A stretch of DNA of 26,578 bases from a virus. Positions 4,570-25,895 of the stretch are shown here, one piece after another; the first letter of the stretch is position 1, and each line of letters begins with the position of its first letter. The notes under the pieces were generated by a model. It did no database searches. It saw only the letters and a program-made list of their open reading frames with translations, and was not told the origin of the DNA. A program made the position numbers and the translations under genes. The DNA is taken from positions 1-26,578 of the IMG/VR virus record IMGVR_UViG_3300036761_000568; one strand, 5' to 3'.

Positions 4570-4573
4570 GTTC

Positions 4574-6712
4574 CTATCCTTTCGCAAACGCTAGTCGATA
4601 ACATTTCAAGACTTGTGGCGACAATTGAAAATAGTTGGCTTTATGTCCTCCCCCGTGGACATTGTTGATGGCACGGTAATTGATGATTTTCAATTCCTGC
4701 ATATCGCAGACCTTTTTGTAAGTCTGACCCAGCTCCAGGTGCAGGGCGATAGCTAGTTGTTGCTTGTTCATGCCTTCTTTGCTGTGAGCTAGCTGCTCGA
4801 TGATCTCGAAGTGGAAGCCGTAGGCTGTGTCGCGGCAGATCCGTTGGAGGATGGAGATAACCCGTTGAGTGATAATGACCTTCTTCGGGTTGTTGGAAAG
4901 TACGATAGCGAGGAAGTAAGCTAGCCGCGTGAATGTTTCTCCAAGACGGGTACTTAGTTCCTTCTCTGGACGAAAGCGAAGATCTCCTTTCATGTCGCGG
5001 GATACGTCTGCTCGACAATAGCTAATGAGTTCTCCCATAGCGAGAATAGTCTCTATACGTTGTGGTGAGAAGTCTATGAGTTCTACTCCTTTCTCAAAAG
5101 CTTGATGCTTCTTATGTTGTAGAAATCCTATTGTGGGTGGACCAATAATGTTAATAGACTTCTTTAACTTACTATCTTCTTCTTCTTTCTTCTCTCTTCC
5201 AGCAAGGGATTTACATAATGCCTGAAACTGTGAATTTACTGCCTTGAGCACTATGTCATGTGAGTCACGTTTGGTGTCGTGAATGACAATATCCACGAAA
5301 CGTGAGCCAAGAATGCTACTATCCATCTGTCGTAAGACTTTTGTGCCACACATAACGACGGTAAAGCGGGTGTGGATGATGATGACCTTTCCCGTGAGAT
5401 ACTCGGTGCGGATGACGCCATCACCCATTGCATCGCGGAGTTCACTCTCGACCTGGGGAAGATTTGGTAGCTGGATCATGGTGTCTGCATCTTTGATGAT
5501 GAGGCACTTACCATTGATCTTACTGGCGAGTTGTTCCTTCTTTGAGAGTGGACCCCAACCGGATACCAGACCGGTAAATTTTGAGCGGGGATAGGTGAGT
5601 TCCTTGCAGAGACTAGCTGCTTCCGCGAGAGTGCTTTTAGCACTGCCAGGGGGACCGATGATACGGAGACCTAGCTGCCCACCTTCGGCTTCCGTTGAGA
5701 TGATGACGGCAAGCATGGTTGCTAGGGTATCCTCAATTTCTGGAGAAAGAAGAAGCTCCTTTTCGTAGTGACCTTTGAGCTGTGTGAACGTCTCGCAGGG
5801 AATCGGGTCAACTGTGTCGTCGTCTGTATCCTCTTCAAGCTTGACTTCATGTAATCGCTCGCGGACGAATTGGTAGGTCTCGTAGTGCGAGTGTTCTAGA
5901 AGTACATCTCGGATATCGTTGGGATCTCCCATTCGCCATTTGAGAACCTGGGCTGATGCAATGTGAATGCCGGATTCTTCGAGGATCTTCAATGTCCGTT
6001 TGGAACCCTTCTGTCCCGGTTCATCGTTGTCGAAGAGGAGGATTATATCCTTGCCGCGTAGCAGCTTTACCCACTTGTCGTTGAAGACACCGGCACCGGG
6101 TACACCGACGACCGTGACGGAATCCAGGAGCTTGCTTTTGAAGTTGGGAGTCTTCCGTTCGATGAAGGCACCGTCCTTCTCGTCCAGGTGGAGCAGCACC
6201 TCTAGCCATGCCGCCATATCCCAGTGTCCTTCACAGATGTAGACTGTCTTCTTTCCCTTGAGCGTCTCTTGACGGAGTAGTTGATGGGTGCAGGGTGCTG
6301 GGGAGGAAAGGACCAGGAACTTGGTCTTGCCCTTCTCCTTGGTCTCCTCGATGCGGTAGAGGTTCTTAAGCTTGCCGTCACTGGCTCCCCAAGCAGGCCA
6401 AACCCATTCATCGTTTACTGCTGATCGGCAGAGACCTATGTGGCGAAAAGTTGAGGCTTTGATGCCGCGATTGGCACTGAGATAGGTGTAGTCCTCTACG
6501 GTTGTTGTTGATTCAGTGAGTGTCTTGGTAATGAAGTCCCAAGTATTACCTGTTTCCTGACAGGTCTTACAATCCCACTGGCCGGTTCTAATCGAGGCGA
6601 AAAACTTTTGCTCTTTCCCACAAAATGGACAGTCCCCTTGTAATTGAGATCCCTTAATTGTTGTGTCTAAACCCTGGAAGTGATAGAACTTCCTGAAGTT
6701 TATGCTATCCAT
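4574..6712 (-). CDS. Primase-helicase: zinc-Toprim primase fused to AAA+ ATPase
   Basis: This 712-residue replication protein combines priming and motor parts. A CHC2-like zinc ribbon lies at C28/C31 (CPFC) and C48/C51 (CKTC). A Toprim domain follows, with the conserved Glu161 (YICEGHWD) and the Asp pair D228/D230 (LLFDNDEPG). A P-loop ATPase has Walker A GPPGSAKST at 353-361, Walker B LIIKDAD at 404-410 and a sensor-like VVMCGT segment. The C-terminal 100 residues look like a winged helix (LAIALHLELGQTYKKVCDMQ). It is organised like T7 gp4 in principle, but the ATPase is AAA+-like rather than RecA/DnaB-like. The ATG at 6712 has AGGAG five bases upstream. It sits directly after the nuclease and polymerase genes. 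Confidence 0.9.
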   Translation of the reverse strand: MDSINFRKFYHFQGLDTTIKGSQLQGDCPFCGKEQKFFASIRTGQWDCKTCQETGNTWDFITKTLTESTTTVEDYTYLSANRGIKASTFRHIGLCRSAVNDEWVWPAWGASDGKLKNLYRIEETKEKGKTKFLVLSSPAPCTHQLLRQETLKGKKTVYICEGHWDMAAWLEVLLHLDEKDGAFIERKTPNFKSKLLDSVTVVGVPGAGVFNDKWVKLLRGKDIILLFDNDEPGQKGSKRTLKILEESGIHIASAQVLKWRMGDPNDIRDVLLEHSHYETYQFVRERLHEVKLEEDTDDDTVDPIPCETFTQLKGHYEKELLLSPEIEDTLATMLAVIISTEAEGGQLGLRIIGPPGSAKSTLAEAASLCKELTYPRSKFTGLVSGWGPLSKKEQLASKINGKCLIIKDADTMIQLPNLPQVESELRDAMGDGVIRTEYLTGKVIIIHTRFTVVMCGTKVLRQMDSSILGSRFVDIVIHDTKRDSHDIVLKAVNSQFQALCKSLAGREKKEEEDSKLKKSINIIGPPTIGFLQHKKHQAFEKGVELIDFSPQRIETILAMGELISYCRADVSRDMKGDLRFRPEKELSTRLGETFTRLAYFLAIVLSNNPKKVIITQRVISILQRICRDTAYGFHFEIIEQLAHSKEGMNKQQLAIALHLELGQTYKKVCDMQELKIINYRAINNVHGGGHKANYFQLSPQVLKCYRLAFAKG

Positions 6713-6720
6713 GCTTTCTC

Positions 6721-7146
6721 CTACAGATCGAAGCGGTAGTTACATGCCTTGATAAATGCGGTCGATGTTCCTGGGAAAACATCTGAGAAGTGCTCAGCGA
6801 ATAATCCCAGCTTTCCCCTTTTCTCTTGAATGTAAAACATGAGTGGTCTGAGACCCTTGAAGAAGCCGCTGATGGCTATGTAGTGAACTCCTTGTTGTCT
6901 AAGCCAAGTGATGTATTCCTTATTTGGCATCTGACCTTTGATTTCAATAAGTGTATATGTTATTTGCGTAACCTTTCCTACTGTGGATGTATGGGCAATA
7001 CTGAGATCTGGAAGTGTATCTGGACCATTCGGTTCATACCAAAACTGTATTCCGCTAAGCGTTAGGAACAATGCCCAACGGGCTTCCAACCTGCTCTTGT
7101 AAGTCATTCCATGCAGTGTAGTGGGAATGGCCTTAATGTCTTTCAT
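6721..7146 (-). CDS. PD-(D/E)XK nuclease
   Basis: The protein has 141 residues and a complete small PD-(D/E)XK core. The helix YKSRLEARWALFLTLSGI holds the conserved Glu21 and is followed by WYEP with Glu38. The metal-binding Asp47 lies in LPDLSI, and E68-x-K70 lies in LIEIKGQ, followed by a conserved Gln in KEYITWLRQQGV. This arrangement is common in phage proteins encoded beside replication genes, which are often annotated as endonucleases or Holliday-junction-resolvase-like. The start overlaps nothing upstream incorrectly: the polymerase stop and this gene share an ATGA-type junction at 7143-7146. The likely role is processing branched or flap DNA during replication. Confidence 0.75.
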   Translation of the reverse strand: MKDIKAIPTTLHGMTYKSRLEARWALFLTLSGIQFWYEPNGPDTLPDLSIAHTSTVGKVTQITYTLIEIKGQMPNKEYITWLRQQGVHYIAISGFFKGLRPLMFYIQEKRGKLGLFAEHFSDVFPGTSTAFIKACNYRFDL

Positions 7147-9281
7147 TTTCGTTTTACTGTTTCCCCAGTAGACCAGTCCTCTCGGATGAGTTTCCCTTCT
7201 ACTGGTAAGGGAATCCCAATGGCTTTTCCCTGGACTTCCATGAGTGTTAACAGATTGTGGATATGCGTATCGAAGTTGGGCATATCCTCTGGGAAATCAA
7301 ATAGGAGTTCGTCATGTATCTGGAGAATGAGCTTGGGATCACGTTGGGTGACATACTGTGTGTCCTCCAGGTAAGTCGAGGTGATAGCCATGGCTCGACC
7401 GATGATTGATCCTGCGGTGCCCTGAACGCGACCTGAGACCGCTTTATGAGGCTCCCCCTTGGGAATGTAGAGACGGTAGCCCGTCATGGTCTCTATGTAG
7501 CCGCGTTGTTGGACCTGTCGGTGCAGACGCTCAGTGAATTGGCGGACCTCCGGGAAACGTTTAGAGAGCTTATTATAGGCCCCCTTAACTTTATATGTCT
7601 CATCTGCCAGTCCTGGTGAGGCACCGTAGATGATCGCGAAGTCTCCGTTTTTTGTATACTTGTACGCCTTGGTATTCTTTGCCTCCTCATCGGTCATTTT
7701 CTGGAGGTGAGGATGCAGCTCGCGGGCGATAATGAGATGGACGGATTGGTCCTGCTCAAAAGCTTTGATGAATTCTTTGTTTCCGCATTCGTATCCCCAG
7801 ATGCGTAGTTCGATATTGCTGTAGTCTACATCAAGCCAGATTCTACCTGGGGCTGGTCCGAAGACGACGCGGAGGTTGAATTCTATCACTCCTCCATCGT
7901 CTCGACCGGTTCCGACGTTTTGGAGGTTGGGGTTGCTACTGGACTGTCTGGTGAAACGTGTTCCCGTAACGTTGACTGATGGATGGATGTAACGGTTGTG
8001 CCTCCCAGGTATTCGGCTGTGATGCGGAATGGAAATCGGTGCATGTAGATTCCCGATTCTAGATGTTGTATCATACGTTCCACTTCCGCTTTTGTCAGTG
8101 GTTCGAGTGGTGACGACGTTGTTGAGCGAGCCATGGGGTGTACTCCATAAAGTGTAGGATTCCAGGGATTCCATTGCCTTCTCTGTCCTACGGCAGAGGA
8201 GCAGGTTTTCAACGAATTTCTGTGGTTCCTGTGGGAGATCCTGATTTTGTAGTTTCTCCAGTACATCAGCAGCTACTGAAGCAAATCCACCTTCCGTCTC
8301 TTGGACTACTGGCAGTTTCCAATGTTCAAAGAGTAGTTTACGGAGTTGGATTGGGGAGCCTAAGTTGGGTTCTTTAATCCCGCACTTCCTCATAATCTTT
8401 TCAACAGTAGCACGGTACTTGTGAGCTTTTTCCTTATAACGTTGGGTCTCCGTTTTTATATTTTGTTTGATGGTGATACCGTTGTTCGTCATTTTATAGG
8501 CAGCTTCTAGGACGGATTTGCGTTCTTCATACTGCTCCCAAAGATCTTCGTCTTTCAATTGCTGCTTGAATGTTTCCCAGAGGACTAAGGTGGTCATAGA
8601 ATCTTCTATGTTGTAGTCCCGAAGAATGTTTTCCCAGGGGTGTAGGAAGAAGTCTGCTCCTGGATAGAGATAATCTTGTTCTGGTGGTAAGAACTCCGGG
8701 GCAAGACGGACAATGGTAGCTGGAAGCCACATATCAAGGACCCACCAACCACTGTCCCCACTGGAGGATTTTGGTGCGGTTGTAATCGCAGGCCAATGGG
8801 GATCTGCTGAGTCCGCGATCCTCCATTTCCCGTGCTTGGTTTGGAAGCGTTTGGTGCGGCAGATGCGGCGGGCTTTGTCCACTGATTTGTGGAGGAAGTC
8901 AACTGTCTCGTTACTGAGGAAGAGAACTGTTTCGCGGAGTGACTTCAGCCCATGCGGCCAGAGGTTGCGGAGAGCGTGAGATGCGATGAGGGTGTCTTCA
9001 ATAGCATTCCATTGCCATTCGTAGTCGTAGTCTAGGAGTGGCCAAAGAAGTTCGACACCCCGCATGTCGAATCCAACGTTGTGACCGACGAAGGAATCCT
9101 CGCTTAGTAAATTCATACATAAGCTGAGATTCTGTGAATTTACTTGCACCTCACGATTGTAGGGATCAACTTCCCATTCCCAATAACTGACCCCACCTTC
9201 CTCATCGCAGATAGAGAGGGCAAAGGGGCGGCAGCCATGCCAAAAGTCGATGCCGGTAGTCTCAATGTCTAATGCGAGCAT
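7143..9281 (-). CDS. polA: Family A DNA polymerase with 3'-5' exonuclease
   Basis: This 712-residue replicative polymerase starts immediately at its exonuclease domain. Exo I is LALDIETTG (D5, E7), Exo II is VGHNVGFDMRG and Exo III is DYNIEDSMTT, so proofreading residues are present; there is no 5' nuclease domain. Motif A is DVDYSNIELR with catalytic D486. Motif B is YKYTKNGDFAIIYG, with Phe548 at the E. coli Phe762 position, and motif C is QIHDELLF with D657. The ATG at 9281 is chosen because AGGGGA lies seven bases upstream and because a longer frame would run through a strong hairpin and the end of the previous gene. Motif B has Tyr where the usual triphosphate-contacting Arg is expected. 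Confidence 0.93.
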   Translation of the reverse strand: MLALDIETTGIDFWHGCRPFALSICDEEGGVSYWEWEVDPYNREVQVNSQNLSLCMNLLSEDSFVGHNVGFDMRGVELLWPLLDYDYEWQWNAIEDTLIASHALRNLWPHGLKSLRETVLFLSNETVDFLHKSVDKARRICRTKRFQTKHGKWRIADSADPHWPAITTAPKSSSGDSGWWVLDMWLPATIVRLAPEFLPPEQDYLYPGADFFLHPWENILRDYNIEDSMTTLVLWETFKQQLKDEDLWEQYEERKSVLEAAYKMTNNGITIKQNIKTETQRYKEKAHKYRATVEKIMRKCGIKEPNLGSPIQLRKLLFEHWKLPVVQETEGGFASVAADVLEKLQNQDLPQEPQKFVENLLLCRRTEKAMESLESYTLWSTPHGSLNNVVTTRTTDKSGSGTYDTTSRIGNLHAPISIPHHSRIPGRHNRYIHPSVNVTGTRFTRQSSSNPNLQNVGTGRDDGGVIEFNLRVVFGPAPGRIWLDVDYSNIELRIWGYECGNKEFIKAFEQDQSVHLIIARELHPHLQKMTDEEAKNTKAYKYTKNGDFAIIYGASPGLADETYKVKGAYNKLSKRFPEVRQFTERLHRQVQQRGYIETMTGYRLYIPKGEPHKAVSGRVQGTAGSIIGRAMAITSTYLEDTQYVTQRDPKLILQIHDELLFDFPEDMPNFDTHIHNLLTLMEVQGKAIGIPLPVEGKLIREDWSTGETVKRK

Positions 9282-9307
9282 GTGATTTTCCCCTGGTGAG
9301 AAGAGGG

Positions 9308-9348
9308 GCACCCTGGGTACGCGGCTTGGTGCTTTGTACCCAGGGTGC
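9308..9348 (-). promoter_or_regulatory. Intercistronic hairpin before polA
   Basis: A perfect 13-bp inverted repeat, GCACCCTGGGTAC (9308-9320) and GTACCCAGGGTGC (9336-9348), has a 15-base loop. It fills most of the 79-base gap between the candidate ssDNA-binding gene and polA. It lies about 14 bases upstream of the polA ribosome binding site. No T-run follows it on either strand, so it is not a standard intrinsic terminator. RNA processing, mRNA stabilisation, partial attenuation or translational control of the polymerase are the plausible roles. Confidence 0.75.
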
Positions 9349-9360
9349 TGCGGCCTTGGT

Positions 9361-10344
9361 CTAATTTGCGAGTTCCAGGTTTTCCAGTGGTACTTCGCAG
9401 GTTTCATCCTCGAATTCAACCTTGGCGTTCTCGTCGTCCATCTCTTGAACCGTCCCTTCGTAGATCACTCCGTCCTCGAAGTAATCCCCGGTCGTCCTGA
9501 CAGTATCCCCGACTTCAAAAGGGATATCGTCCTCTGCCTCCTTCTTTGCTTTGCCCCTGGACTTCTTCTCGGCAATGATGGCGAGATTGCCCCACGGTAT
9601 GTCTTGTTGGTCGTCGTCTTCCTCGAAGAAGATGGCACAGTTTTCTTCATCCTCGTCAATCTCATTGACGATTCCCTGGTACTCGTTTCCATCCTCGAAG
9701 AAGTTGCCGGTTGTCTTGACCTTATCTCCCACTTTGAATGGAACGGACTTCTCATTTTTGGACTTGGGTGCTGGCCTGCTCTTTTTCGCTGGCTTCCTTT
9801 CCTCCTCTTCTTCGTCTTCCTCTTCCTCCTCCTCATCGTCGTCGTCGTTCACGTCTGATTCCTGGAAGAAAGTCTTGTATTCCCCATTTTTATTGGGGCG
9901 GGTCGAGGTGTTGAAAACGAACTTGACCTTCTCTTTCTCCAAGACCTTGAGGATGTTATCCGTCGCTTCGGATTCATCCCCTGCTGATTCGATGATCTCG
10001 GAGAATCCAATCAGTTTCATGTCGTTGAAGAACGCTTCCAGGTTTTGTTCTGCGGTGTTGTACTGATCCTCCGCCAGTTTGTAATACTTGCCGCAGGGAA
10101 CGCCAGCCAATTCGGTTGGTTCCAGAACTGAGGCATAGACGTAGACGTAGGGATCTCCGTTCTTATCCGCGTCCAGCTTGGCCGAGGTGGTTTGACCCAC
10201 TGCGTCCTCCAGTCCGCCAGGAAGCTTTCGACCGCCCGCTTTCGCCTCGGTCTTCTTAATCTTATCGAACGCCCCCTTGCTTCGCTTGCGGAGCTTGTTG
10301 AGCATCTTGGAGCGTTCCACCGACGTATCTTTTTCTTTCGCCAT
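9361..10344 (-). CDS. Candidate ssDNA-binding protein with acidic linker and two SH3-like repeats
   Basis: The 327-residue protein has three parts. The N-terminal region (about 1-165) begins with a basic segment (MLNKLRKRSKGAFDKIKKTE) and continues with a possible OB-like part (DPYVYVYASVLEPTELAG). A very acidic run of Asp/Glu (about 165-186) is followed by a basic linker. Two tandem SH3-like repeats close the protein: PFKVGDKVKTTGNFFEDG and PFEVGDTVRTTGDYFEDG begin each, and each ends in a W/L-GNL or L-ENL strand. It sits between Sak4-like ATPase and polA, where phages usually encode their SSB or annealing partner; that placement is the main reason for the call. ATG 10344 follows AAAGGG. An alternative is a recombination mediator. 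Confidence 0.5.
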   Translation of the reverse strand: MAKEKDTSVERSKMLNKLRKRSKGAFDKIKKTEAKAGGRKLPGGLEDAVGQTTSAKLDADKNGDPYVYVYASVLEPTELAGVPCGKYYKLAEDQYNTAEQNLEAFFNDMKLIGFSEIIESAGDESEATDNILKVLEKEKVKFVFNTSTRPNKNGEYKTFFQESDVNDDDDEEEEEEDEEEEERKPAKKSRPAPKSKNEKSVPFKVGDKVKTTGNFFEDGNEYQGIVNEIDEDEENCAIFFEEDDDQQDIPWGNLAIIAEKKSRGKAKKEAEDDIPFEVGDTVRTTGDYFEDGVIYEGTVQEMDDENAKVEFEDETCEVPLENLELAN

Positions 10345-10356
10345 GACTGCTACCCT

Positions 10357-11166
10357 TTACCACTTGTTACCCATCTTGACCTGAAAATTACGAAAGCCTT
10401 CTTCTGCTGTGTCTCCAAGCGGAATGACCCCTTGGATACCATACCAATTTTTTGCATCACAATAGGGAGTGCCATCCACGAAGAGGATACGGTCAAACTC
10501 CGGTTTCGCGATTTTACGATTGCCTCCTTTCTTCTTATCCTCCTCGATCCGGCGACCGAAGAAGAAGACGCCAGATGCCCAACGATGCAAGCGTGCCCAG
10601 GAGTCTTTCTCACAATAGGGTACATACTTCATGACGGCTGTACCCATGGGATCTGGTTCCTCCTTGGATTGTGAGTGGGCAGTGACGACTACATTCTTTC
10701 CACTCTCATACACCGCGTCAAGAGCGGTTATCAATTCAGGCCAATCGAAGCGAGCGGCATTCTTCGGGCCTTGCCAATGGCTGTAAAAACCGGTCTTAGA
10801 GAAGTCTCCGTCAAAGTGTGCCTCACAGTGATAGACGAAGCAGATATTCTCCAGACCGGTCACACTTTCGAGAACAAGCGTCTCAATCGTGTTATCGTTG
10901 CAAGCCGCCCAAACTCGTTTGAGAAGTTTCTTCCACGTTGCCGGGGAATCCACCTCTAAGTCACAGTCTATCCAAACGGGTTCAGGGACTAGCTTGTTTC
11001 TGGTGAGAAAGACAATTCCTTTCTCCTGCGAATCGCAGATAAATCCTGGTCGTGGAAATTGAGCCGCGAAGCTGGTCTTCCCCGATCCGCTGGGACCATA
11101 GAGGACCAGGGTGATATGGGTGTGTTTCTTCTTAGCTGGAGCGGCGATTGGTTTTTTGGGTGGCAT
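10357..11166 (-). CDS. Sak4-like RecA-fold ATPase (AAA_24 type)
   Basis: The gene encodes 269 residues from the ATG at 11166 (AGGA nine bases upstream). The Walker A motif is GPSGSGKT at residues 24-31. The Walker B-like strand is ETLVLESVTGLE, with Glu100 where Asp is usual. VVVTAHSQSKEEPDP resembles the next core strand with its sensor polar residue. The following C-terminal part contains the short-chain RecA core features of phage Sak4 proteins, which promote single-strand annealing or strand exchange together with an SSB. The neighbours fit: a RecB/Cas4-like nuclease upstream and a candidate ssDNA-binding protein downstream. The first 35 bases overlap a small zinc-finger gene in another frame. 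Confidence 0.8.
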   Translation of the reverse strand: MPPKKPIAAPAKKKHTHITLVLYGPSGSGKTSFAAQFPRPGFICDSQEKGIVFLTRNKLVPEPVWIDCDLEVDSPATWKKLLKRVWAACNDNTIETLVLESVTGLENICFVYHCEAHFDGDFSKTGFYSHWQGPKNAARFDWPELITALDAVYESGKNVVVTAHSQSKEEPDPMGTAVMKYVPYCEKDSWARLHRWASGVFFFGRRIEEDKKKGGNRKIAKPEFDRILFVDGTPYCDAKNWYGIQGVIPLGDTAEEGFRNFQVKMGNKW

Positions 11167-11251
11167 GTTTATGTTTCCTAGAATGGTCTGCGACTTTGCA
11201 ACGTTTGAATACCTTCCCGCAAACCGGGCACTGTCCGCGTGACCCAATCAC
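11132..11251 (-). CDS. 39-residue C2H2-type zinc-finger protein
   Basis: Between the nuclease and Sak4 genes a third frame encodes 39 residues: a short start (MIGSRGQ), then CPVCGKVFKRCKVADHSRKH and a basic tail (KHATQKTNRRSS). The pattern is C-x2-C-x11-H-x3-H (C8, C11, H23, H27), a near-classical C2H2 finger with the typical CxxCGKxF opening. The GTG start at 11251 overlaps the nuclease stop as GTGA, with GAGGATAAA immediately upstream, exactly the junction type used elsewhere in this operon. The stop TAA at 11134-11132 lies 35 bases inside the Sak4 gene. Without this gene the 81 bases would be empty in a tightly packed operon. It probably binds DNA or modulates the neighbouring proteins. 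Confidence 0.7.
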   Translation of the reverse strand: MIGSRGQCPVCGKVFKRCKVADHSRKHKHATQKTNRRSS

Positions 11252-12012
11252 TTTATCCTCTTTTCCAATTCAGCCTGGAGTTCGTAGCAGCGACGGAAGA
11301 GGAGGAACATCTCGGCAGCTCCGTCTAATTTACGGAACTGGTGGTGATGGAAATCCGCAGTCTCTTTATCGAAGCGGAGGAGGTGATAGGAATTGATCTG
11401 ATTGTCTGGGTGGTTCTCGTTCCACAACAATCCATAGGCTGCCAGTTGGCAGATGTAGTCACTGTAAACGGCTTTGCTGGTCTTCCAATCCAGGATTACC
11501 AAATCTCCGTCAAGCTCCGCGATGCAGTCAATACAGCCACCGTAACGATTGGAAGTGGAGATGAGGGCAGCTTCGGTTTGCTTGACCTTGATCTTATGGA
11601 GCTTCTCCCACTTGAGGAATGCTTGGAAGCTGGAACGGGCTTTCTCCGCAATCTCTAGATGCACGTTGAATTCTGAAGCAATGACCCGGTGGGACTTCTT
11701 TGCTAGGTTGAGCTTCTCTCCCTTGCTGGCATGAATCCAGATTTCTACCAGACGGTGAGCGACTGTTCCAGCTTCTGCCGCCCTAGCAGACATTGCCCGG
11801 TAGTTGCCGAGTTCCAGGGGATTGGTGGCGAGGAAGGATTTTACCTCTTTGACCTTAGCACCCGTCTTGAGAAGATAAACGGCTGTGGTCAATTGCTGAT
11901 AGGCAATATCCCAGGACCAGTACATCAGGGCACCTGGGTCTTTGAATTTTCCTAATATTGTTGTGACGCTGGGAACTCGCTTGCCTTGGACTGTGTAGCG
12001 TTGGGTGGGCAC
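11248..12012 (-). CDS. RecB/Cas4-like PD-(D/E)XK exonuclease
   Basis: The 254-residue nuclease has all core residues of the RecB family: an N-terminal SVTTIL element, H86 in GTVAHRLVE, E147, D162 in GGCIDCIAEL, D175-W-K177 in VILDWKTSKA, and the helix motif Q189-LAA-Y193. The four-cysteine iron-sulfur set of true Cas4 is not seen, and there is no CRISPR array, so a phage recombination exonuclease is meant. Its partner is the adjacent Sak4-like ATPase. It would resect ends to provide single strands. The GTG start at 12012 has GAGGAG seven bases upstream. The gene follows the UDG stop by four bases and overlaps the zinc-finger start as GTGA. Confidence 0.85.
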   Translation of the reverse strand: MPTQRYTVQGKRVPSVTTILGKFKDPGALMYWSWDIAYQQLTTAVYLLKTGAKVKEVKSFLATNPLELGNYRAMSARAAEAGTVAHRLVEIWIHASKGEKLNLAKKSHRVIASEFNVHLEIAEKARSSFQAFLKWEKLHKIKVKQTEAALISTSNRYGGCIDCIAELDGDLVILDWKTSKAVYSDYICQLAAYGLLWNENHPDNQINSYHLLRFDKETADFHHHQFRKLDGAAEMFLLFRRCYELQAELEKRIK

Positions 12013-17548: not shown

Positions 17549-17570
17549 GACCCTCCCAGGACTCTCAGGA

Positions 17571-17597
17571 CCCTCGGTGATAAGCCGGGGGTTTTTT
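17571..17597 (+). terminator. Rho-independent terminator, end of rightward unit
   Basis: CCCTCGG (17571-17577) pairs with CCGGGGG (17585-17591) including one G-U pair, followed by TTTTTT (17592-17597). It ends the helicase unit where it meets the convergent tail operon; the T-run overlaps the TAA stop of the leftward radical SAM gene. Confidence 0.8.
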
Positions 17598-18600
17598 ATT
17601 TGAGTGGATCAAACCAGAAGTTTGTCTCTGCACTGGAGTGACCGTAGAAGTCCAGGGAGCCATTGTTGATGAACCCAGCATCGACTCCTAGAGAGTGTAA
17701 GATAGGATCTTGTAGAACGTGGAGGAAATCCTGATGTTCTGGATGCTCTGGATTGGCGACATTGACGAGAGACCAGTGTTCCTTGGTGATATGCGGCCAA
17801 GGAGCAATAAGACAGAATTGAATAATGTGAGCGAGATGCCGCTTACCCATGGCAATGAATTCTGGTATCTCGCGAAAATTTGCTTGTTGTACGACCATGT
17901 TGATCTGGAAGAGAAATACTTCCTGGCAAGCAACCAAAACCCGCATGAAGTCTAAGGTCTGTTGTATCTGTTCCCACTTGGCCGGTTGCCGAAGCTGCTC
18001 ATATGTTTCTTTCTTGGCAGCGTCGATGGAGATAATAACTACGGTGACCTTCCGTTTAATCTCCTGCCAGAAGCGTGGGAGGAGTATGCCATTAGTCCAA
18101 AGGATAACATCTGGTGTTCCGGGTTGTCGTAGGAAGTCCATGCAGGTAGATGATGCAAATGGATCTCCCGCAAGGCTCATGGAAACAGTTTGGATACCCG
18201 GCATTTGTGTAATAACTCGTTGGGGAGGCCATAAGCTAGGAACACCTTTGGAAATAGTTTGTAATCGGCAAGATGAACAGTGAAGATTGCAGGCTTCATC
18301 ATCCAAAAATTGATAAGTGATGGGTGGCCGTTCCATGATTGGCTTTTCATCGGGGAGTGGAAATTCTCGGTCGCGTTTACGAAAGCGATTGGGGCAGCGT
18401 TGGCACCAACGGTAATCTTTCTGAAGGAGAGCTTCCCGCCATTCAATCAGGGAAGGGTGATTCCAAACGTCCCAGAGATTGTCGAAGTTTCCGTAGATGA
18501 AGCGAGATTCGTCCATCCAACCAGGGCAACAGGTAGAGAAGCGTCCGCGATCCTTGGAAAGAAATGTGAACGGATCTGGGCAAAATGGTATTTCATTCAT
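17596..18600 (-). CDS. Radical SAM protein with N-terminal SPASM-like module
   Basis: The protein has 334 residues. The radical SAM signature C-x3-C-x2-C is C104-NLH-C108-SS-C111, with a barrel continuing as MSLAGDPFASSTCMDFLR (the GGEP-region counterpart), ILWTNGILLP, VVIISIDAAKKETYEQLR and FQINMVVQQANFREIPEFIA. Before it, residues 6-70 hold CPDPFTF, CCPGWM (C24/C25), YGNFDNLWDVWNHP and YRWCQRCPNR (C66/C69). This resembles an auxiliary-cluster SPASM domain, unusually at the N-terminus. Such enzymes use S-adenosylmethionine to generate a radical on peptides or small molecules. The start overlaps the PRTase-HAD stop as ATGA. The substrate is unknown. It is the last gene of the tail operon. Confidence 0.85.
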   Translation of the reverse strand: MNEIPFCPDPFTFLSKDRGRFSTCCPGWMDESRFIYGNFDNLWDVWNHPSLIEWREALLQKDYRWCQRCPNRFRKRDREFPLPDEKPIMERPPITYQFLDDEACNLHCSSCRLQTISKGVPSLWPPQRVITQMPGIQTVSMSLAGDPFASSTCMDFLRQPGTPDVILWTNGILLPRFWQEIKRKVTVVIISIDAAKKETYEQLRQPAKWEQIQQTLDFMRVLVACQEVFLFQINMVVQQANFREIPEFIAMGKRHLAHIIQFCLIAPWPHITKEHWSLVNVANPEHPEHQDFLHVLQDPILHSLGVDAGFINNGSLDFYGHSSAETNFWFDPLK

Positions 18601-19736
18601 CGGAGGTAGCCTTCTTCAATGTTGAGTACGCGGAGATGACGTTTGCGGAGTTCCTGGGTGATGAGCTTATCTGACTCGATGTAGAAGGATACATCGAGTT
18701 CCCGGCAGACGTTACGCTTCCAGGAGGAGACACTTTCCAAGGTGCGGGATTGGGAAGAGGACCACATGATGAGTTCCTGATAAGTGACCCCATGCTTCGC
18801 CAACCATGCGACGGTAATCTCGCGGAACTTCTCCAAGCGGGCTGTGACGATTGCCCTGGTCTTGAACATGGTGTGCCGAGGGAGAAACTTAGGGATTGTC
18901 GTAGGGAAGAACTTCTCTTCGAGAGCATCGACTTCGTAGATTTCCGCTGGTCCGTCTTCGCAAATAACCCCATCCAGATCGAGGGCACAAAGAGAAATTT
19001 GTGGTCCATTGAAGAAATTCCACTCGAAGAGATGCAAGTTGTTTTGGATAACAACGTGCTGATCTACCAGATGGACAGTATGTGGAGTAACGAAGACTGC
19101 CGCCTTGAAAGTCCCGGTGGGGAGGAGGAGATTGAGTCTTCGTATTTGGGAACCAGATCCCAAGGAGTCTTCAATTAGAGCGAACCTGCCCGTGGTGTGC
19201 TTTAAGTCTCTGGAGCGATCCCCACTGTTCAGGCGGATGATCTTATTCCGGCTGATCGCGTAGAGTGGTTTGTGGAGTGCCGTGGCGATGATTGTGGCGG
19301 GGAGCATCCCGGAGCGGGCGACACCAATGATGGCGTCTATGTCTAAGGGAATGTTGTGAATTAGAGTTTTAGAAAGTCTGGTGAGATCCTGAGTGGAGTG
19401 CCAAGGGATAGAATACTCCGTCCATTTGCCTTGGGGGCATTTCTCTTTAGTGGAACGGATGAGATTGTTGAGACTGCTCCAACAGCCAAGATCAATACGT
19501 TTGCAGCGTTTGTGTTTATCTTCGTAGAATTCAGAGCATTGCGAGCAGATTTGATAGCGGTGAGTAATTTCCCAATCCGGAGTTCTGATGCGGAGATTGC
19601 TTTCCGATATGTATGTTTTATTCCCAGGTCTTTCGTTGTCCGGTAGCTCGACCTTCGTGACATTACCACAACGGCAGAATACCCTGGTAGTATGCACGTT
19701 TAATTCTAGTCCGCATTGGCTGCATTTCCATTTCAT
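18597..19736 (-). CDS. Zinc-ribbon / phosphoribosyltransferase / HAD fusion protein
   Basis: The 379-residue protein has three parts. The N-terminal 105 residues are Cys-rich: CSQC (5-8), FCRCG (20-24), ICSQC (63-67), C78, C85 and KCPQGKW (99-105), probably two zinc sites. Residues 130-230 form a PRTase: IIGVARSGMLPATIIATALH, then the PRPP loop FALIEDSLGSGSQI (185-198) with E189/D190. Residues 248-360 form a HAD phosphatase: LDLDG (D253/D255), IVTAR (296-300), K340 and YIESD (352-356), so all four HAD motifs are present. A PRTase coupled to a phosphatase could make a nucleoside-like metabolite via a nucleotide. The gene overlaps both neighbours. No close family name can be given. Confidence 0.8.
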   Translation of the reverse strand: MKWKCSQCGLELNVHTTRVFCRCGNVTKVELPDNERPGNKTYISESNLRIRTPDWEITHRYQICSQCSEFYEDKHKRCKRIDLGCWSSLNNLIRSTKEKCPQGKWTEYSIPWHSTQDLTRLSKTLIHNIPLDIDAIIGVARSGMLPATIIATALHKPLYAISRNKIIRLNSGDRSRDLKHTTGRFALIEDSLGSGSQIRRLNLLLPTGTFKAAVFVTPHTVHLVDQHVVIQNNLHLFEWNFFNGPQISLCALDLDGVICEDGPAEIYEVDALEEKFFPTTIPKFLPRHTMFKTRAIVTARLEKFREITVAWLAKHGVTYQELIMWSSSQSRTLESVSSWKRNVCRELDVSFYIESDKLITQELRKRHLRVLNIEEGYLR

Positions 19737-22126
19737 CAGTATGCCGTAGCTTTAATGGTTAAAGAAGTGACTCCATCACAGAGGCAACCACCTGGATAAA
19801 GTGGTCCGGATTCATAGGGTATTGTTTCGTCTACTAATGTATCACAACGTTGGCTCATAGAGAATGTTTTCTGATATAGAACTCCGCAGGATGGTGGAGC
19901 ATAAGTTCCTTCTGGAATGAATATAATTGATACGTTGAGTTCCCAACCGCTAGGTATAGCTTCTTCAATCTCCCAAGCGATTTCCAGGTAGTAGTAGAGG
20001 ACACCAAATTCTATGGGACCGTTGCAGATGAACCAGCGTTTGCGTCCTTGGCAGCTTCCTCCAAATTGTGACCAGGAACTTGGAATTACATAGGTTCCAT
20101 CTATGTCTGGACAATTCCCGCAGTATTGAGAATACTCGTTGATAAATCCGGTAATGTTGAAACTGATACCCTGCGGTCCATCTCCTCCTGGACAGGGAGT
20201 GCATTCAGTGGGGTAGCAGTCACGGCAAGCGTTGGCATTCGCGGAACCTATGATACTAAAGTCACCAGTCCGAAAGTGAACTTTACCATTGATTGTGGCA
20301 CCTGTGCCGAAGGCGACTCGTTTGTTTCCATAAACTGTGGTGTAAGAGACGGCTTGAACTAGATAATCATTTTTCCCTGGTAGGTAGTAATCCCAGAAGC
20401 CCTCTACGGTTATTGATACTGCATCCGTTCCATCTTCTGCGACGAAGGTACAAAGTGTTACTTGAAAAGGTGCTGCTCGCCCACTGACTGGAGGCTGAGG
20501 ACCGAAAGGTGGATTGACAGTTTCTAAAATAGTGCCGCCTTTACCGAGTTTTATAACTGATCCTACACCTCCGCTGTTGCCACAAGTGATTTCACCCCAA
20601 TGTCCGTTCCCAGAAGTTGGATCGTAGTCTACATAAAATCGGGTAGTATCACCGGCTGCATCGAGCCAAGCCGCGTAGACCCATAATTTCTGATAACCGA
20701 AGTCGGTGTACTCAATGCAATTCCAAGCGGATTGATCCTGGGTGCAACGGATGAGAGCGTTGGTGCTGACTGTTTCCAGATCATCCGCCCCTGGCGTTGA
20801 GTAATATCCGTAATCAGTTCCTATCCAAGTCCCGGAGACGATCTCCCAACCGCAACCGATTTCGGTAAGTGGATTTCCTGGGTAGTAGTAGAAGGGCGAT
20901 TTAGTGAAGACACAAGTCTGGGTAATTTCATCTCCTGGTGTGTAACAATCTGTAATCGTCATTCCATAGTTGTGGTAGTAATAATGGAAATCTGAAAAAA
21001 TGATACGTCCCTCTACCACACTGCCAGTTCCGATGCCCACCTTCGTGCCGGAAACCGTACCTACCGTCTCCTTCATCGTAACAGGGTTGGGTCCAAATCC
21101 TTCTTGAGCGGAAAATGTAGTCCATAAGACACCGGTTGTGGCACTATATCCAGCCCAAAGCGATATCCCCGATTGCGACTCCGGAAAACCCATTGGTTTG
21201 GATTCCTGGAGTAAGGTAGTCCCGTTGAAAAGCCTGACGATGAAGCATCCGTAGGTTGTGTATTGACTCGTTTCATTGAAACCTAGTTCTATCTCTACGA
21301 AGAGGGTGGTGCAGAGAACGATGCGGGCTTTGTCTCCATGCTTGTAATAGTCTGGGAAGCTACCTGGATAGCGAACATTCGGACAGTGGATGAGATTGAC
21401 AAGGACGACGTGCTCTGCGACGGCATTGGGATGAGCGGTATCGAAGCGAAGGTAAGCACCTGTATCTTCGGTGGAAGCACAATGATTTCCACTGAAGTTT
21501 GTCATCCCCCAGGTTCCGGACTGAACGGACCAGCCCGCACTTAAAGGAGTAGTCGTATAGTGAACTTTGATTTGAACAATGTCAATGTTGGCAGTAACCG
21601 AAGCACCGGAAGTATTGGCGACGGAGATGCGGACTTTGAAACTGGAGTTGTTAACTCCTTCTGGAGTAAGAATTAATAACCAGTCATCGTTATTGGCTCC
21701 TACCAAGTATTCCGCTTCGGCTGTGGGATAAATATCAGAGATATATTTGGGATCTTGTAAGGTGTAGGAACCTGGAAGAACTTGAATCCTGCCAAGGGTG
21801 GAAAAGCTGGTACTGGCGAAACGTCGATAACGGACTTCAATACCAGTAATGAGGGCAGAAGAAGGAACGGATAGACCGAAGCTTGACAGGTCCAGATATT
21901 TGCTGGTTTCTCCTACTGCCAGGGTGACGGATGCATAGCTACCATCATCCACTGCTAGATTGGTAGTCCCAGACCAGGAGATGCCGTCTCCTGTATTGGC
22001 AACTGTACCTGCCGTGACCCAACCGGTGTCTGTTGTGGGAACATGCTGAAAAGTATCTTCACCGATCAAGCAACTCTCTGGAGTTGTAACGCAGCAACAG
22101 TTAGAACCACCTTTGTACCAGCCCAT
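19736..22126 (-). CDS. Large Cys-rich multidomain tail protein, putative receptor-binding
   Basis: The 796-residue protein starts at the ATG at 22126 (MGWYKGGSNCCCVTTPESC). The N-terminal third has a jelly-roll-like pattern (NLAVDDGSYASVTLAVGETS through ALITGIEVRYRRFASTSF, then ADIVQ/IVQIKVHY-type strands). Two concanavalin/LamG-like modules of about 200 residues follow. They start WSVQSGTWGMTNFSG and WEIVSGTWIGTDYGY and end GIGTGSVVEGRIIFSDF and AFGTGATINGKVHFRTG. A Cys-rich C-terminal part carries CRDCYPTECTPCPGGDG and more pairs. The many paired cysteines suggest disulfide-stabilised virion exposure. Position behind the tape measure and virion genes supports a tail tip or fibre role in host binding. 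Confidence 0.7.
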   Translation of the reverse strand: MGWYKGGSNCCCVTTPESCLIGEDTFQHVPTTDTGWVTAGTVANTGDGISWSGTTNLAVDDGSYASVTLAVGETSKYLDLSSFGLSVPSSALITGIEVRYRRFASTSFSTLGRIQVLPGSYTLQDPKYISDIYPTAEAEYLVGANNDDWLLILTPEGVNNSSFKVRISVANTSGASVTANIDIVQIKVHYTTTPLSAGWSVQSGTWGMTNFSGNHCASTEDTGAYLRFDTAHPNAVAEHVVLVNLIHCPNVRYPGSFPDYYKHGDKARIVLCTTLFVEIELGFNETSQYTTYGCFIVRLFNGTTLLQESKPMGFPESQSGISLWAGYSATTGVLWTTFSAQEGFGPNPVTMKETVGTVSGTKVGIGTGSVVEGRIIFSDFHYYYHNYGMTITDCYTPGDEITQTCVFTKSPFYYYPGNPLTEIGCGWEIVSGTWIGTDYGYYSTPGADDLETVSTNALIRCTQDQSAWNCIEYTDFGYQKLWVYAAWLDAAGDTTRFYVDYDPTSGNGHWGEITCGNSGGVGSVIKLGKGGTILETVNPPFGPQPPVSGRAAPFQVTLCTFVAEDGTDAVSITVEGFWDYYLPGKNDYLVQAVSYTTVYGNKRVAFGTGATINGKVHFRTGDFSIIGSANANACRDCYPTECTPCPGGDGPQGISFNITGFINEYSQYCGNCPDIDGTYVIPSSWSQFGGSCQGRKRWFICNGPIEFGVLYYYLEIAWEIEEAIPSGWELNVSIIFIPEGTYAPPSCGVLYQKTFSMSQRCDTLVDETIPYESGPLYPGGCLCDGVTSLTIKATAY

Positions 22127-22127
22127 G

Positions 22128-22784
22128 TTAATTTCCAGTGCATTGCATGTTTTCAATGTTCCAGGTAGTCCCAGTTTTGTAACTGGCTCGACCGGCTGCC
22201 CCAGAGGCACCCTCGAAGAGATAAAGACCACCTGTGCTGGTCAAGAGGTTCTCAACGGTGATACTGGTGGTGGGATGGGTGATACCCTGTCCCCATTGAC
22301 TTGTAATCGTGGCAGACTTGGAAGCGTCTGAAGTCGCCAAGGCCGCATCGAGTGTAAAGCGGCAATGGGGCTTAAAGATGATGGGAGTGGCAACCCAAAA
22401 GAGACCCTTGCGGTCTTGAACGATAGGAAAGATCAGCTTGGTAGAAATAGGAATAGCATTATCGTAGGGATTGTAAACTGTGACCGACCTCCAGGTGCCG
22501 CCTACGGATGCTTCTGATTTTAATAACTTTGCGTCTGAGATGTTAAGTTCCAAAAGAGAAGCTTCACCGGAACCGACAACATAATTTGTACCCGCATCTC
22601 CACCTGTAGCGGCTGTGATGGTTGTTTTAGCGGTTGCCATCCAGATACGAGCAGCGGGGATCATTGTTTCTGGGAGTGAAACAACATCTTTGGGGACCTT
22701 GTTAATTTCACCTGAAGTGACGAAGTTCATCAGGTCTACGGCAATATTGCGATCTGAGAATCCAAAGATGTTCTTAGTAGGCAT
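22128..22784 (-). CDS. Putative virion (tail) structural protein
   Basis: The 218-residue protein starts MPTKNIFGFSDRNIAVDLMN. It is rich in Ser, Thr and Gly with alternating strand-like segments (ASLLELNISDAKLLKSEASV; WRSVTVYNPYDNAIPISTKL) and a beta-rich C-terminal part (GGLYLFEGASGAAGRASYKT). These features are typical of a phage tail or baseplate structural protein, but the family is not recognised. The ATG at 22784 overlaps the previous stop (TAATG). It lies between a second virion protein and the large Cys-rich tail protein, and probably joins the distal tail. Confidence 0.6.
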   Translation of the reverse strand: MPTKNIFGFSDRNIAVDLMNFVTSGEINKVPKDVVSLPETMIPAARIWMATAKTTITAATGGDAGTNYVVGSGEASLLELNISDAKLLKSEASVGGTWRSVTVYNPYDNAIPISTKLIFPIVQDRKGLFWVATPIIFKPHCRFTLDAALATSDASKSATITSQWGQGITHPTTSITVENLLTSTGGLYLFEGASGAAGRASYKTGTTWNIENMQCTGN

Positions 22785-23636: not shown

Positions 23637-25895
23637 TTATCCTCCTGGAGGTGTTGTAAAGGATGAGCCAACACCCTCGAAGACAAACGTGCCACCTTTC
23701 TTCAGCAGCATTGTAATGCCTTCTGCAATCTTGGCAGTGTTTGAGGCGGTTTTCTGGGCAGCATCGAGGGTAGCTTTGCGATTGTCAAAGGCTGCCTTGG
23801 CGGCTTCCGTTGATCCCATTTCTAAACCTTCCGGCATTTTTGTTGCTGCGAGGCTTCTAAGTGGACCGGGACCACCAGCGGTTTCTGAGTAATTGTAAGG
23901 CTTAACATTGCTTTGAACTTCTTCGGCAATTCGATCTGGTAGTTTTGACATTTCGATAGCTTGGTTGACGGCACCCATAGCGTTCTTCTCTTGTTCGGCG
24001 TAACCCTCTCTGAGTTTCTTTGTCTCCGCTTCTAAATCTGCGAGGGCTTTGTTCTGATCTTGAGCTAGCTTGTCAGTCCCTTGCTGATTCATCTGGTCGA
24101 TTTGATTGGTAGCTAGATTGCTTTCGTTGCCTAATGCTTTGGCACGTTCGTTTTCAGCTTGCACGTCTACCCCGGAAATTTTCTTAAAGACCGCGTTGAA
24201 GAATTTATTCTTCCCAGCCATTTCCAACATACTCTTGGCAATACTACTAACGGTATCCATCCAGATTTTCTTTATACCAGCCGAGACTTCAATCCATAAT
24301 TTCTGGAAGAAGAAGGTGAACTCCAACCAGATTTTCTTCATGCCGATGATTCCTAGTTGAAGAATCTGTTCTAGAGAGACCATTAACACATTCATGGCTC
24401 CCTTGATATCGCCTGCCAGGATGCGGTCTTTAATAGCTGTGAAAGCACTACCTACAACGGACTTGATATTCTCAAAGGTATCCATAATTGGTTGGCTAAT
24501 AGCTTGGACGGCTTCATTGGCAATGTCGAAGTTCTTTGCTAAGAGGTAAACGATTCCGGCGATCTCTCCGAGGACTGCTCCTACGGCGACTAAGGGACCA
24601 AAAAGGAAGAGGATAGTAGAAGCGATGGCACTGATAGCAACTAAGGCGAGACCAAAGATTTTGAGTGTTGCCCCAAGGACAATGAGACCACCCGCTACAC
24701 CCATGATGCCCAGGAAGGCGATAGCGAGATTCTTCGCGAGATGTGTGTTTTCCTTAAACCAAGCTTCTAGTCCGTTGAGAATAGGGACGAAGCGATCTTC
24801 CAAAGTTTGAAACATCTTTTCAAAGGATAGTCCGAAGGTAACGGCCAGACTGTTGAAAGCGGTAATGAGGCGACGGATGCTACCACCTAAACCAGAGTCC
24901 ATCATCTGGGCAGCTTCGGCGGCTGTGATTTCACCTTTGGCGAGTAATCCCAAAACTTCTTCCACGCGATCCATGTTCTTCAGGGCTTGAGCGGCTCGTG
25001 ATCCCCGGATGTTGAAGAGATCATTGAGGACAGTCAAGCGTTCCTGCTGGCTCATCTCTTTCATGCCAGCCCGCAGGTCGTTGAAGACTTCAATCATGGG
25101 ACGTGCTTCACCGGCCTTGAACATCTCAAAGCCGAATAGCTCCTTGACCTTATCCGCGTTTTTGGTCATTTCGATGAGGAGGTTGTTGAGGCTGGTGCCG
25201 CCCTTGGTGCCGGTGAGCATGTTGTTGCTGAAGATGGCTAAGGTAACAACTGTTTCTTCTAGTGACATACCCATGTCATGGGCTGAGCCAGCTACGAAGG
25301 AGAGGGCTGAGCCTAATTCCTGGACGGTGGTGGTACCGGCGGAACTGGCGACGAAGAGGGCATCGGCAACTCGTGCGGCTTCTGTGGCGGGAATCTCGAA
25401 AGCCATGAGGGAGCGGGCCATGTACATGGCGGATTCCGACATAGTGATCTGTCCAGCTCTGGCTAGATTGATTACATCGTCAAGTGCGTCTTCAATAATT
25501 TGGAGTGACCCTGGACCAAAAGCTCTGGCTAATTCTTCCGCACCGAGAGCTACTTCTTCTGCTGTGTAGCTGGTGGTGCGTCCGAGATTGCGGACCTTCT
25601 TCTCCAAGGGTTCCATCTCTTTGGTAGTGACTCCGAGAATGGCTTGTGTGGCAAGCATGGCATCTTGGTACTTCTGGGCTTCCCGGATGCCGATATACAT
25701 ACTGCGGCCAAGACCTGTTGCTGCTAAGCCAAGACGGAGACCAGCGGATTCCATGCCTGAGCCTACGGCATTGAGCTGCTTACCCATGGCAGCAATCTTC
25801 TTATTAACTTGGGATAAGACCTTCCCCGTTTCATCCTTGGCTCGAATGAGAACGTAAGCTGCTCCGGCGACAACGCGACCCATGGAGAGTGCCAT
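23637..25895 (-). CDS. Tape measure protein, TP901 family
   Basis: The 752-residue protein carries the conserved TP901/PhageMin_Tail block: EAQKYQDAMLATQAILGVTT, LGRTTSYTAEEVALGAEELA, SESAMYMARSLMAFEIPATE and VVTLAIFSNNMLTGTKGGTS, then IRGSRAAQALKNMDRVEEVL. A strongly hydrophobic region (about 383-453) with several membrane-length segments probably inserts in the membrane during DNA entry. Long helical and coiled-coil stretches follow (AEQEKNAMGAVNQAIEMSKL). At roughly 0.15 nm per residue the length predicts a tail of about 110 nm, an estimate only. ATG 25895 follows AAAGGG. It marks the surrounding genes as tail genes. Confidence 0.92.
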   Translation of the reverse strand: MALSMGRVVAGAAYVLIRAKDETGKVLSQVNKKIAAMGKQLNAVGSGMESAGLRLGLAATGLGRSMYIGIREAQKYQDAMLATQAILGVTTKEMEPLEKKVRNLGRTTSYTAEEVALGAEELARAFGPGSLQIIEDALDDVINLARAGQITMSESAMYMARSLMAFEIPATEAARVADALFVASSAGTTTVQELGSALSFVAGSAHDMGMSLEETVVTLAIFSNNMLTGTKGGTSLNNLLIEMTKNADKVKELFGFEMFKAGEARPMIEVFNDLRAGMKEMSQQERLTVLNDLFNIRGSRAAQALKNMDRVEEVLGLLAKGEITAAEAAQMMDSGLGGSIRRLITAFNSLAVTFGLSFEKMFQTLEDRFVPILNGLEAWFKENTHLAKNLAIAFLGIMGVAGGLIVLGATLKIFGLALVAISAIASTILFLFGPLVAVGAVLGEIAGIVYLLAKNFDIANEAVQAISQPIMDTFENIKSVVGSAFTAIKDRILAGDIKGAMNVLMVSLEQILQLGIIGMKKIWLEFTFFFQKLWIEVSAGIKKIWMDTVSSIAKSMLEMAGKNKFFNAVFKKISGVDVQAENERAKALGNESNLATNQIDQMNQQGTDKLAQDQNKALADLEAETKKLREGYAEQEKNAMGAVNQAIEMSKLPDRIAEEVQSNVKPYNYSETAGGPGPLRSLAATKMPEGLEMGSTEAAKAAFDNRKATLDAAQKTASNTAKIAEGITMLLKKGGTFVFEGVGSSFTTPPGG

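Follow-up and report, generated by a model that had tools for sequence, protein, structure and literature searches.

A PRTase-HAD fusion and a radical SAM enzyme form a conserved gene pair in uncultivated phages, with a possible role in ribofuranosylation of a phage-associated acceptor

RESULTS

A gene pair at the end of a phage tail operon

The window, that is, the whole stretch of DNA analyzed here, is a virus record of 26,578 bases in which a tail operon on the minus strand starts with a tape-measure gene and, after three more genes, ends with a gene encoding a fused PRTase-HAD protein and a gene encoding a radical SAM enzyme. The following features are pertinent to the analysis below.

23637-25895, minus strand: tape-measure gene (PhageMin_Tail in Pfam, E = 5e-36), start of the operon
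19736-22231, minus strand: Cys-rich tail or virion protein of 831 aa with 28 Cys, adjoining the PRTase-HAD gene upstream; putative acceptor or scaffold
18597-19736, minus strand: PRTase-HAD protein of 379 aa, with a Cys-rich N-terminus (residues ~1-110), a PRTase part (~110-245), and a HAD phosphatase part (~250-376)
17596-18600, minus strand: radical SAM enzyme of 334 aa, with an N-terminal twitch/SPASM-like Cys motif followed by CX3CX2C
17567-17595, plus strand: terminator-like hairpin directly past the radical SAM stop codon, marking the end of the tail operon

Both gene overlaps described in the first-pass annotation of this DNA are present. At the junction of the tail gene and the PRTase-HAD gene (TACTGATGAAATGG), a single base is shared, the A of the tail stop codon TGA opening the ATG of PRTase-HAD (TGATG), and at the junction of the PRTase-HAD and radical SAM genes (CGATGAATG), stop and start share the four bases ATGA. 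Based on its T-run, the hairpin was assigned to the convergent plus-strand gene; pattern matches around 17567-17595 are not commoner than in shuffled sequence.

Matches of the Cys-rich-domain and adapter profiles to their own seed sequences are circular and were not counted, and the homology of the Cys-rich protein was re-tested by BLASTP. In this comparison, the protein from the window aligned with the protein encoded at the same position in a related viral locus, L001 (37% identity over 614 columns); the match to L002 was short and weaker. In the window, L001, L002, L133, L129, and L005, the gene immediately upstream of the pair encodes a Cys-rich tail or virion protein, an arrangement that fits the earlier suggestion that the two enzymes act jointly, late in infection, near such a protein.

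Elsewhere on the minus strand of the window, a replication block (4574-12012) encodes a family A DNA polymerase, a primase-like protein, a Sak4-like annealing protein, and an exonuclease. The gene at 3976-4587 (minus strand), about 14 kb from the pair, encodes a nucleotidyltransferase-like protein (CTP_transf_like, E = 4e-7; phrog_7878, heptose kinase/adenylyltransferase, E = 1.5e-10), which is possibly a sugar-nucleotide enzyme; its activity is uncertain because the HxGH-like motif reads HPGN. Involvement of this gene in NAD or nucleotide salvage was also considered and rejected, as no NAMPT-like PRTase was found.

The PRTase-HAD protein retains the PRPP and phosphatase sites but lacks purine-recognition residues

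In Pfam searches, the PRTase-HAD protein matched Pribosyltran at residues 114-167 (E = 1e-3) and a HAD/PNKP-phosphatase domain at residues 252-376 (E = 0.03), in both cases below the gathering cut-off. A structure model built with 47 homologs (mean pLDDT 80) had high confidence in the PRTase and HAD parts and confirmed the PRTase fold; residues 35-105 were poorly modeled (pLDDT <50). The N-terminal part contains nine Cys, and given the low confidence of the prediction there, zinc binding by this part is only presumed. In a Foldseek comparison with the PDB, xanthine-guanine PRTases and other purine PRTases related to them scored best, with TM values by target reaching 0.74 over ~131 residues. 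A profile of the 47 homologs compared to PDB sequences retrieved purine PRTases (E = 5e-13) and, for the HAD part, Pnkp1 (E = 7e-5).

The catalytic motifs listed previously all lie where they had been placed: E189/D190 in EDSLGSGS, D253/D255 in LDLDG, T298-A-R300, K340, and E354-S-D. The PRPP-site residues G138, R141, S142, G143, D190, and G195 and the HAD residues D253, D255, G256, R300, K340, E354, and S355 are invariant in all 47 homologs, position 189 is D or E in all 47 and is always followed by D190, T298 is kept in 46 of the 47, and W239 in the FEWN motif is also invariant. The first-pass proposal of a joint pathway hinged on conservation of the active sites, which is complete or almost complete at the catalytic motifs.

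In XGPRT, the lysine of the 'KP' motif contacts the purine. The KP lysine of solved purine PRTases aligns with T217, a position occupied by K in 2 of the 47 homologs, and the catalytic Asp of the purine PRTase loop (the second Asp of 'DDLVDTG', DDxxDTG) aligns with G193, where Asp falls outside the six commonest residues among the 47 homologs. Because the PRPP and phosphatase residues are kept whereas the purine-related Lys and Asp are gone, this family keeps the chemistry of PRPP use and of phosphate removal and has lost purine recognition.

The two parts of the protein vary in their arrangement. In L032, L033, and L034, the PRTase and HAD parts are not fused but are split over two overlapping open frames, and in a Planctomycetaceae bin (L044, 7066-9030), two tandem PRTase-HAD units occupy one open frame that is open at the contig end.

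The radical SAM enzyme contains an N-terminal twitch-like Cys motif

The radical SAM enzyme matched the Pfam families SPASM (residues 19-70) and Radical_SAM (residues 163-219), both below the gathering cut-offs. The CX3CX2C motif (C104, C108, and C111) is invariant in 10 homologs, and so are the N-terminal cysteines C7, C24, C25, C66, and C69. The N-terminal Cys motif aligns with residues 210-263 of the BtrN twitch domain (E = 5e-4), and given that this motif is N-terminal here and C-terminal in BtrN, the domain order is apparently permuted. The earlier description of the enzyme as SPASM-like needs one correction: in the window protein, the SPASM/twitch-like Cys domain precedes CX3CX2C at the N-terminus and does not occupy the usual C-terminal location. 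The enzyme matches phrog_14086 (E = 1e-10), and with this family, BtrN, BlsE, and NF033640 (N_Twi_rSAM), it shares the CX3CX2C core and the BtrN-twitch-like Cys motif. It differs from enzymes of this type in the N-terminal location of the auxiliary domain and in an NF033640 score far below the curated cut-off of 170 bits, which is not reached by the proteins from the window (38.7 bits), L001 (74.9), or L002 (47.5).

The best fold matches, all structurally weak, were BlsE, viperin, TYW1, SuiB, and MoaA, with DesII lower. BlsE, viperin, and DesII have nucleoside or sugar substrates, and SuiB and TYW1 are peptide- and tRNA-modifying radical SAM enzymes. The matches that act on sugars or nucleosides provide a suggestive but weak hint at the substrate class.

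In a virus contig (L137, 6001-8439), a protein of 812 aa comprises two units of this radical SAM family fused head to tail. Its gene lies between genes that by eye appear sulfotransferase-like and glycosyltransferase-like, with no PRTase-HAD gene nearby.

The gene pair recurs in uncultivated phages

When 2.9 million viral contigs were scanned for PRTase-HAD, two close relatives emerged, with identities of 48% (L001) and 35% (L002); in both, the gene order is Cys-rich tail protein, PRTase-HAD, radical SAM, with overlapping or abutting genes. With a three-member PRTase-HAD profile, 33 viral loci encoding a relative were detected. For the radical SAM enzyme, a single-sequence search of the viral contigs gave no matches and a three-row profile was needed, which detected nine viral loci; PRTase-HAD is also encoded on eight of these nine records, and in the ninth locus, the contig end lies 783 bases ahead of the radical SAM gene.

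A broader search yielded 80 radical SAM loci, some of them near-duplicates, which were ordered by tblastn E-value to the window radical SAM enzyme; family-model scores were not used for this ranking because the model included paired members. A PRTase-HAD gene is located nearby in 12 of the closest 14 loci, the exceptions being L126 and L128 (cut at contig end), and on the same record, usually close, in 18 of the closest 27 phage loci, compared to none of the next 53 loci within flanks of 6 kb. Across the 15 pairs compared, both genes occur together from 98% identity down to about 25%, and their divergence is correlated (r = 0.91). Common ancestry of the phages would by itself produce part of this correlation, which is only weakly indicative of pairing. 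The association is one-sided, that is, PRTase-HAD is common without the radical SAM enzyme, and the window-like radical SAM subfamily is found mostly with PRTase-HAD. Such asymmetry suggests that the radical SAM enzyme acts downstream of PRTase-HAD or on the same object.

Thus, the PRTase-HAD and radical SAM genes are a real, conserved gene pair that recurs in distantly related uncultivated phages, and the first-pass proposal passed the test set for it beforehand, occurrence of the pair elsewhere. Among 50,697 annotated phage records, neither protein was matched at the tblastn sensitivity used, a result that pertains to those records only. Queries with the window proteins and with marine and rumen-type homologs yielded no relevant pair in annotated phages; what they retrieved was a distant PRTase from Flavobacterium phages and, separately, a radical SAM protein from Vibrio phages.

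Bacterial relatives are encoded in surface-polysaccharide gene clusters

A scan of 84,980 species genomes detected 113 relatives of PRTase-HAD, of which 80 were kept; these come from Bacteroidota, alphaproteobacteria, spirochaetes, Lachnospiraceae, and Planctomycetes, among others. Several are fused to glycan enzymes, namely GT2 (L056), GT4-WbsX-GT2 (L083), RgpF with a TOD1-type domain (L088), and an FkbM methyltransferase (L048 and L066). The 106 neighbors in 15 bacterial loci include Glyco_trans_1_4 (18), Glycos_transf_2 (GT2; 13), Wzy_C (6), and Polysacc_synt (2). The setting of the bacterial homologs is surface-polysaccharide gene clusters. Neighbors of the TerD, ATP-grasp, or PRTase_2 type were not found among the scanned window or neighbor genes; PRTase_2 was seen only once, in L077, below the cut-off.

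Tailoring enzymes near the pair in phages

In related phages, the pair is accompanied by various modification enzymes: Methyltransf_24 or TylF in L037, L039, L005, and L018; Sulfotransfer_1 above the cut-off in L037 and Sulfotransfer_3 below the cut-off in L133 (E = 4e-5); polysaccharide pyruvyltransferase (PS_pyruv_trans) in L130 and L131; GT2 and GT1 in L129; and GTs in L001. Sulfotransferases assigned by eye or below threshold in L002 (E = 0.2), L039, L130, and L136 were discarded, so that only those in L037 and L133 are supported. The window's own record contains no glycosyltransferase, Methyltransf_24, or Sulfotransfer_3 match, and GT1/GT2 matches are absent from seven other paired records (G002, G017, G034, G040, G043, G045, and G046). 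In the paired records without GT1/GT2, including the window, a protein or a glycan of the host may serve as acceptor.

L130, L131, L132, L134, and L136 share a cassette of PRTase-HAD, a P-loop protein (sulfotransferase-like by eye), polysaccharide pyruvyltransferase, and radical SAM; in L130, it adjoins a protein with long Ser/Ala repeats. In L129, PRTase-HAD and the neighboring GT2 (4827-5978 and 6968-7975) have a common Cys-rich N-terminal adapter, ..C..C....C...CP..KW; both proteins are seeds of the adapter model, and the pattern that they have in common is obvious on inspection of their sequences. This Cys-rich module may direct PRTase-HAD and GT2 to one acceptor, and the adapter might have a targeting role for a number of enzymes associated with the tail. 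Similar modules are present in L068 and L106 (Schlesneria). In two Planctomycetaceae bins (L044 and L053), PRTase-HAD by eye lies behind tape-measure-like genes, which makes a planctomycete host plausible for such phages.

Comparison with known systems

The original study of gPRT, by Kelly et al. in 2022, is said to have described it as divergent from other PRTases. In the dual-domain gPRT-PRP chain, gPRT transfers beta-Ribf-5-P from PRPP and PRP removes the phosphate (PMC11127046), and such enzymes are described for Klebsiella O-antigens and Thermobacillus composti (PMC11127046, PMC10299916). The CriT-CrpP module of Haemophilus influenzae Bcs3 similarly comprises a PRPP-dependent ribofuranosyltransferase, inverting to beta-Ribf, and a HAD phosphatase (PMC10299916).

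As in gPRT-PRP, the window protein combines a PRPP-binding transferase with a HAD phosphatase in one chain. Location in glycan gene clusters is seen in the bacterial homologs, only in part in the phages, and was not seen in the window's record. Unlike gPRT-PRP, the window PRTase has a recognizable purine-type fold, is phage-borne, and is paired with a radical SAM enzyme. CriT-CrpP likewise couples a PRTase-like transferase and a HAD phosphatase around PRPP, but Bcs3 is a large multi-domain capsule polymerase. The 47-homolog profile showed no sequence homology to gPRT or CriT among the best 60 of 102 PDB sequences. Given this lack of sequence membership, as far as it extends, and the ordinary PRTase fold, we classify PRTase-HAD as working like gPRT-PRP and CriT-CrpP. 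Purine PRTases (Gpt/XPRT; PDB 1a95, 4trb, and 1vdm) share with it the fold and the PRPP site with two acidic residues; the window protein lacks the KP lysine and the loop Asp and has a fused HAD part and the W239 motif. The proposed chemistry class, PRPP-dependent ribosyl transfer and dephosphorylation with a non-purine acceptor, is moderately supported.

Virion glycosylation is known in mycobacteriophages, in which capsid and tail subunits receive glycans from phage-encoded enzymes (Freeman et al. 2023, cited in PMC12619734); the citing text presents this as ordinary glycosyltransferase work, with neither PRPP-dependent ribosylation nor radical SAM enzymes in that text.

DISCUSSION

The reading that we favor, at about an even chance, is a two-step ribofuranosylation of a phage-associated acceptor by PRTase-HAD, followed by radical SAM tailoring. 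The PRTase domain would move 5-phosphoribosyl from PRPP to a non-purine acceptor, which could be a glycan or else a residue of a virion protein, for example, the Cys-rich tail protein of the phage; the HAD domain would then take off the 5-phosphate, and the radical SAM enzyme would tailor the same product, most likely its sugar. Counting for ribofuranosylation are the conserved PRPP-loop and HAD motifs, the missing purine-recognition residues, the GT fusions and polysaccharide neighbors of the bacterial homologs, the gPRT and CriT precedents, the linkage of the two genes, the tailoring enzymes in related phages, the adapter common to PRTase-HAD and GT2 in L129, and the fold matches of the radical SAM enzyme to BlsE, viperin, and DesII. 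Counting against it are the lack of a gPRT or CriT sequence match among the best 60 PDB sequences and of a GT, Methyltransf_24, or Sulfotransfer_3 match in the window's record, the absence of GT1/GT2 from seven other paired records, the frequent occurrence of PRTase-HAD without the radical SAM enzyme, the resemblance of the HAD part to PNKP phosphatase, a nucleic-acid enzyme, and the weakness of the radical SAM structural matches, which include the peptide- and tRNA-modifying SuiB and TYW1.

The first-pass annotation had suggested a modified nucleoside-like metabolite. In a full version of this reading, the PRTase would make a nucleotide from a base and PRPP, the HAD phosphatase would dephosphorylate it, and the radical SAM enzyme would remodel the product to an antiviral-like or signaling nucleoside. 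Purine PRTases are indeed the nearest solved folds, the HAD domain could release a nucleoside, and three of the top matches of the radical SAM enzyme, viperin, BlsE, and MoaA, work on nucleotides or nucleosides, but the family-wide loss of the purine-binding Lys and the catalytic Asp, the location of bacterial homologs in polysaccharide clusters, some fused to glycosyltransferases, and the absence of Ter-type genes among the scanned window and neighbor genes make this unlikely. The PNKP-like phosphatase could also point to processing of DNA or RNA ends jointly with the PRTase; with the kinase and nucleic-acid-binding domain absent, the homologs in a glycan context, and the pair late in a tail operon, we consider this highly improbable. 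The other half of the earlier suggestion, modification of a virion protein, can be recast as ribosylation or glycan decoration.

Alternatively, the target could be a host-surface glycan rather than the virion, altered in the course of infection or in the lysogenic state, for instance, as a block to superinfection. Phage glycan-modifying genes can change the host serotype, a precedent that adds to the polysaccharide setting of the bacterial homologs. Such genes are mentioned in PMC12619734. Against this stand the position of the pair directly behind a tail gene, to which it is translationally coupled, in the window, L001, L002, and L133, and the lack of a membrane-bound GtrA/GtrB/Gtr-like partner adjoining the pair, which render the host-glycan explanation improbable. 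It also seems unlikely that the two enzymes are mere neighbors in a general late-gene tailoring cassette, acting on different substrates. This would account for the many phages that encode PRTase-HAD without a window-type radical SAM enzyme, for the 53 of 53 lower-ranked loci of the wider radical SAM family without PRTase-HAD nearby, and for the other tailoring enzymes interspersed in L130-L136 and L037, but not readily for the closest subfamily, 18 of whose 27 members share a record with PRTase-HAD, or for the persistence of the pairing to identities as low as about 25-30%, with a correlated divergence to which shared ancestry contributes.

In a more specific version of the ribofuranosylation model, which we consider clearly less likely than not, the phage would decorate its own tail: a PRPP-derived ribofuranosyl group would be attached to the Cys-rich tail protein or its glycan and its sugar remodeled by the radical SAM enzyme, and in related phages, methyl-, sulfo-, or pyruvyltransferases would add more groups. 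To our knowledge, this would be the first phage PRPP-dependent ribosylation system. No cultured representative of phages with the pair was found here; the model predicts pentose on tail proteins or glycans. If ribofuranosylation is the actual function, a purine-type PRTase turned glycan enzyme would constitute a second bacterial route to ribofuranosides, beside the recently found gPRT, and phage tail genes would have a sugar-decorating cassette with radical chemistry attached to them.
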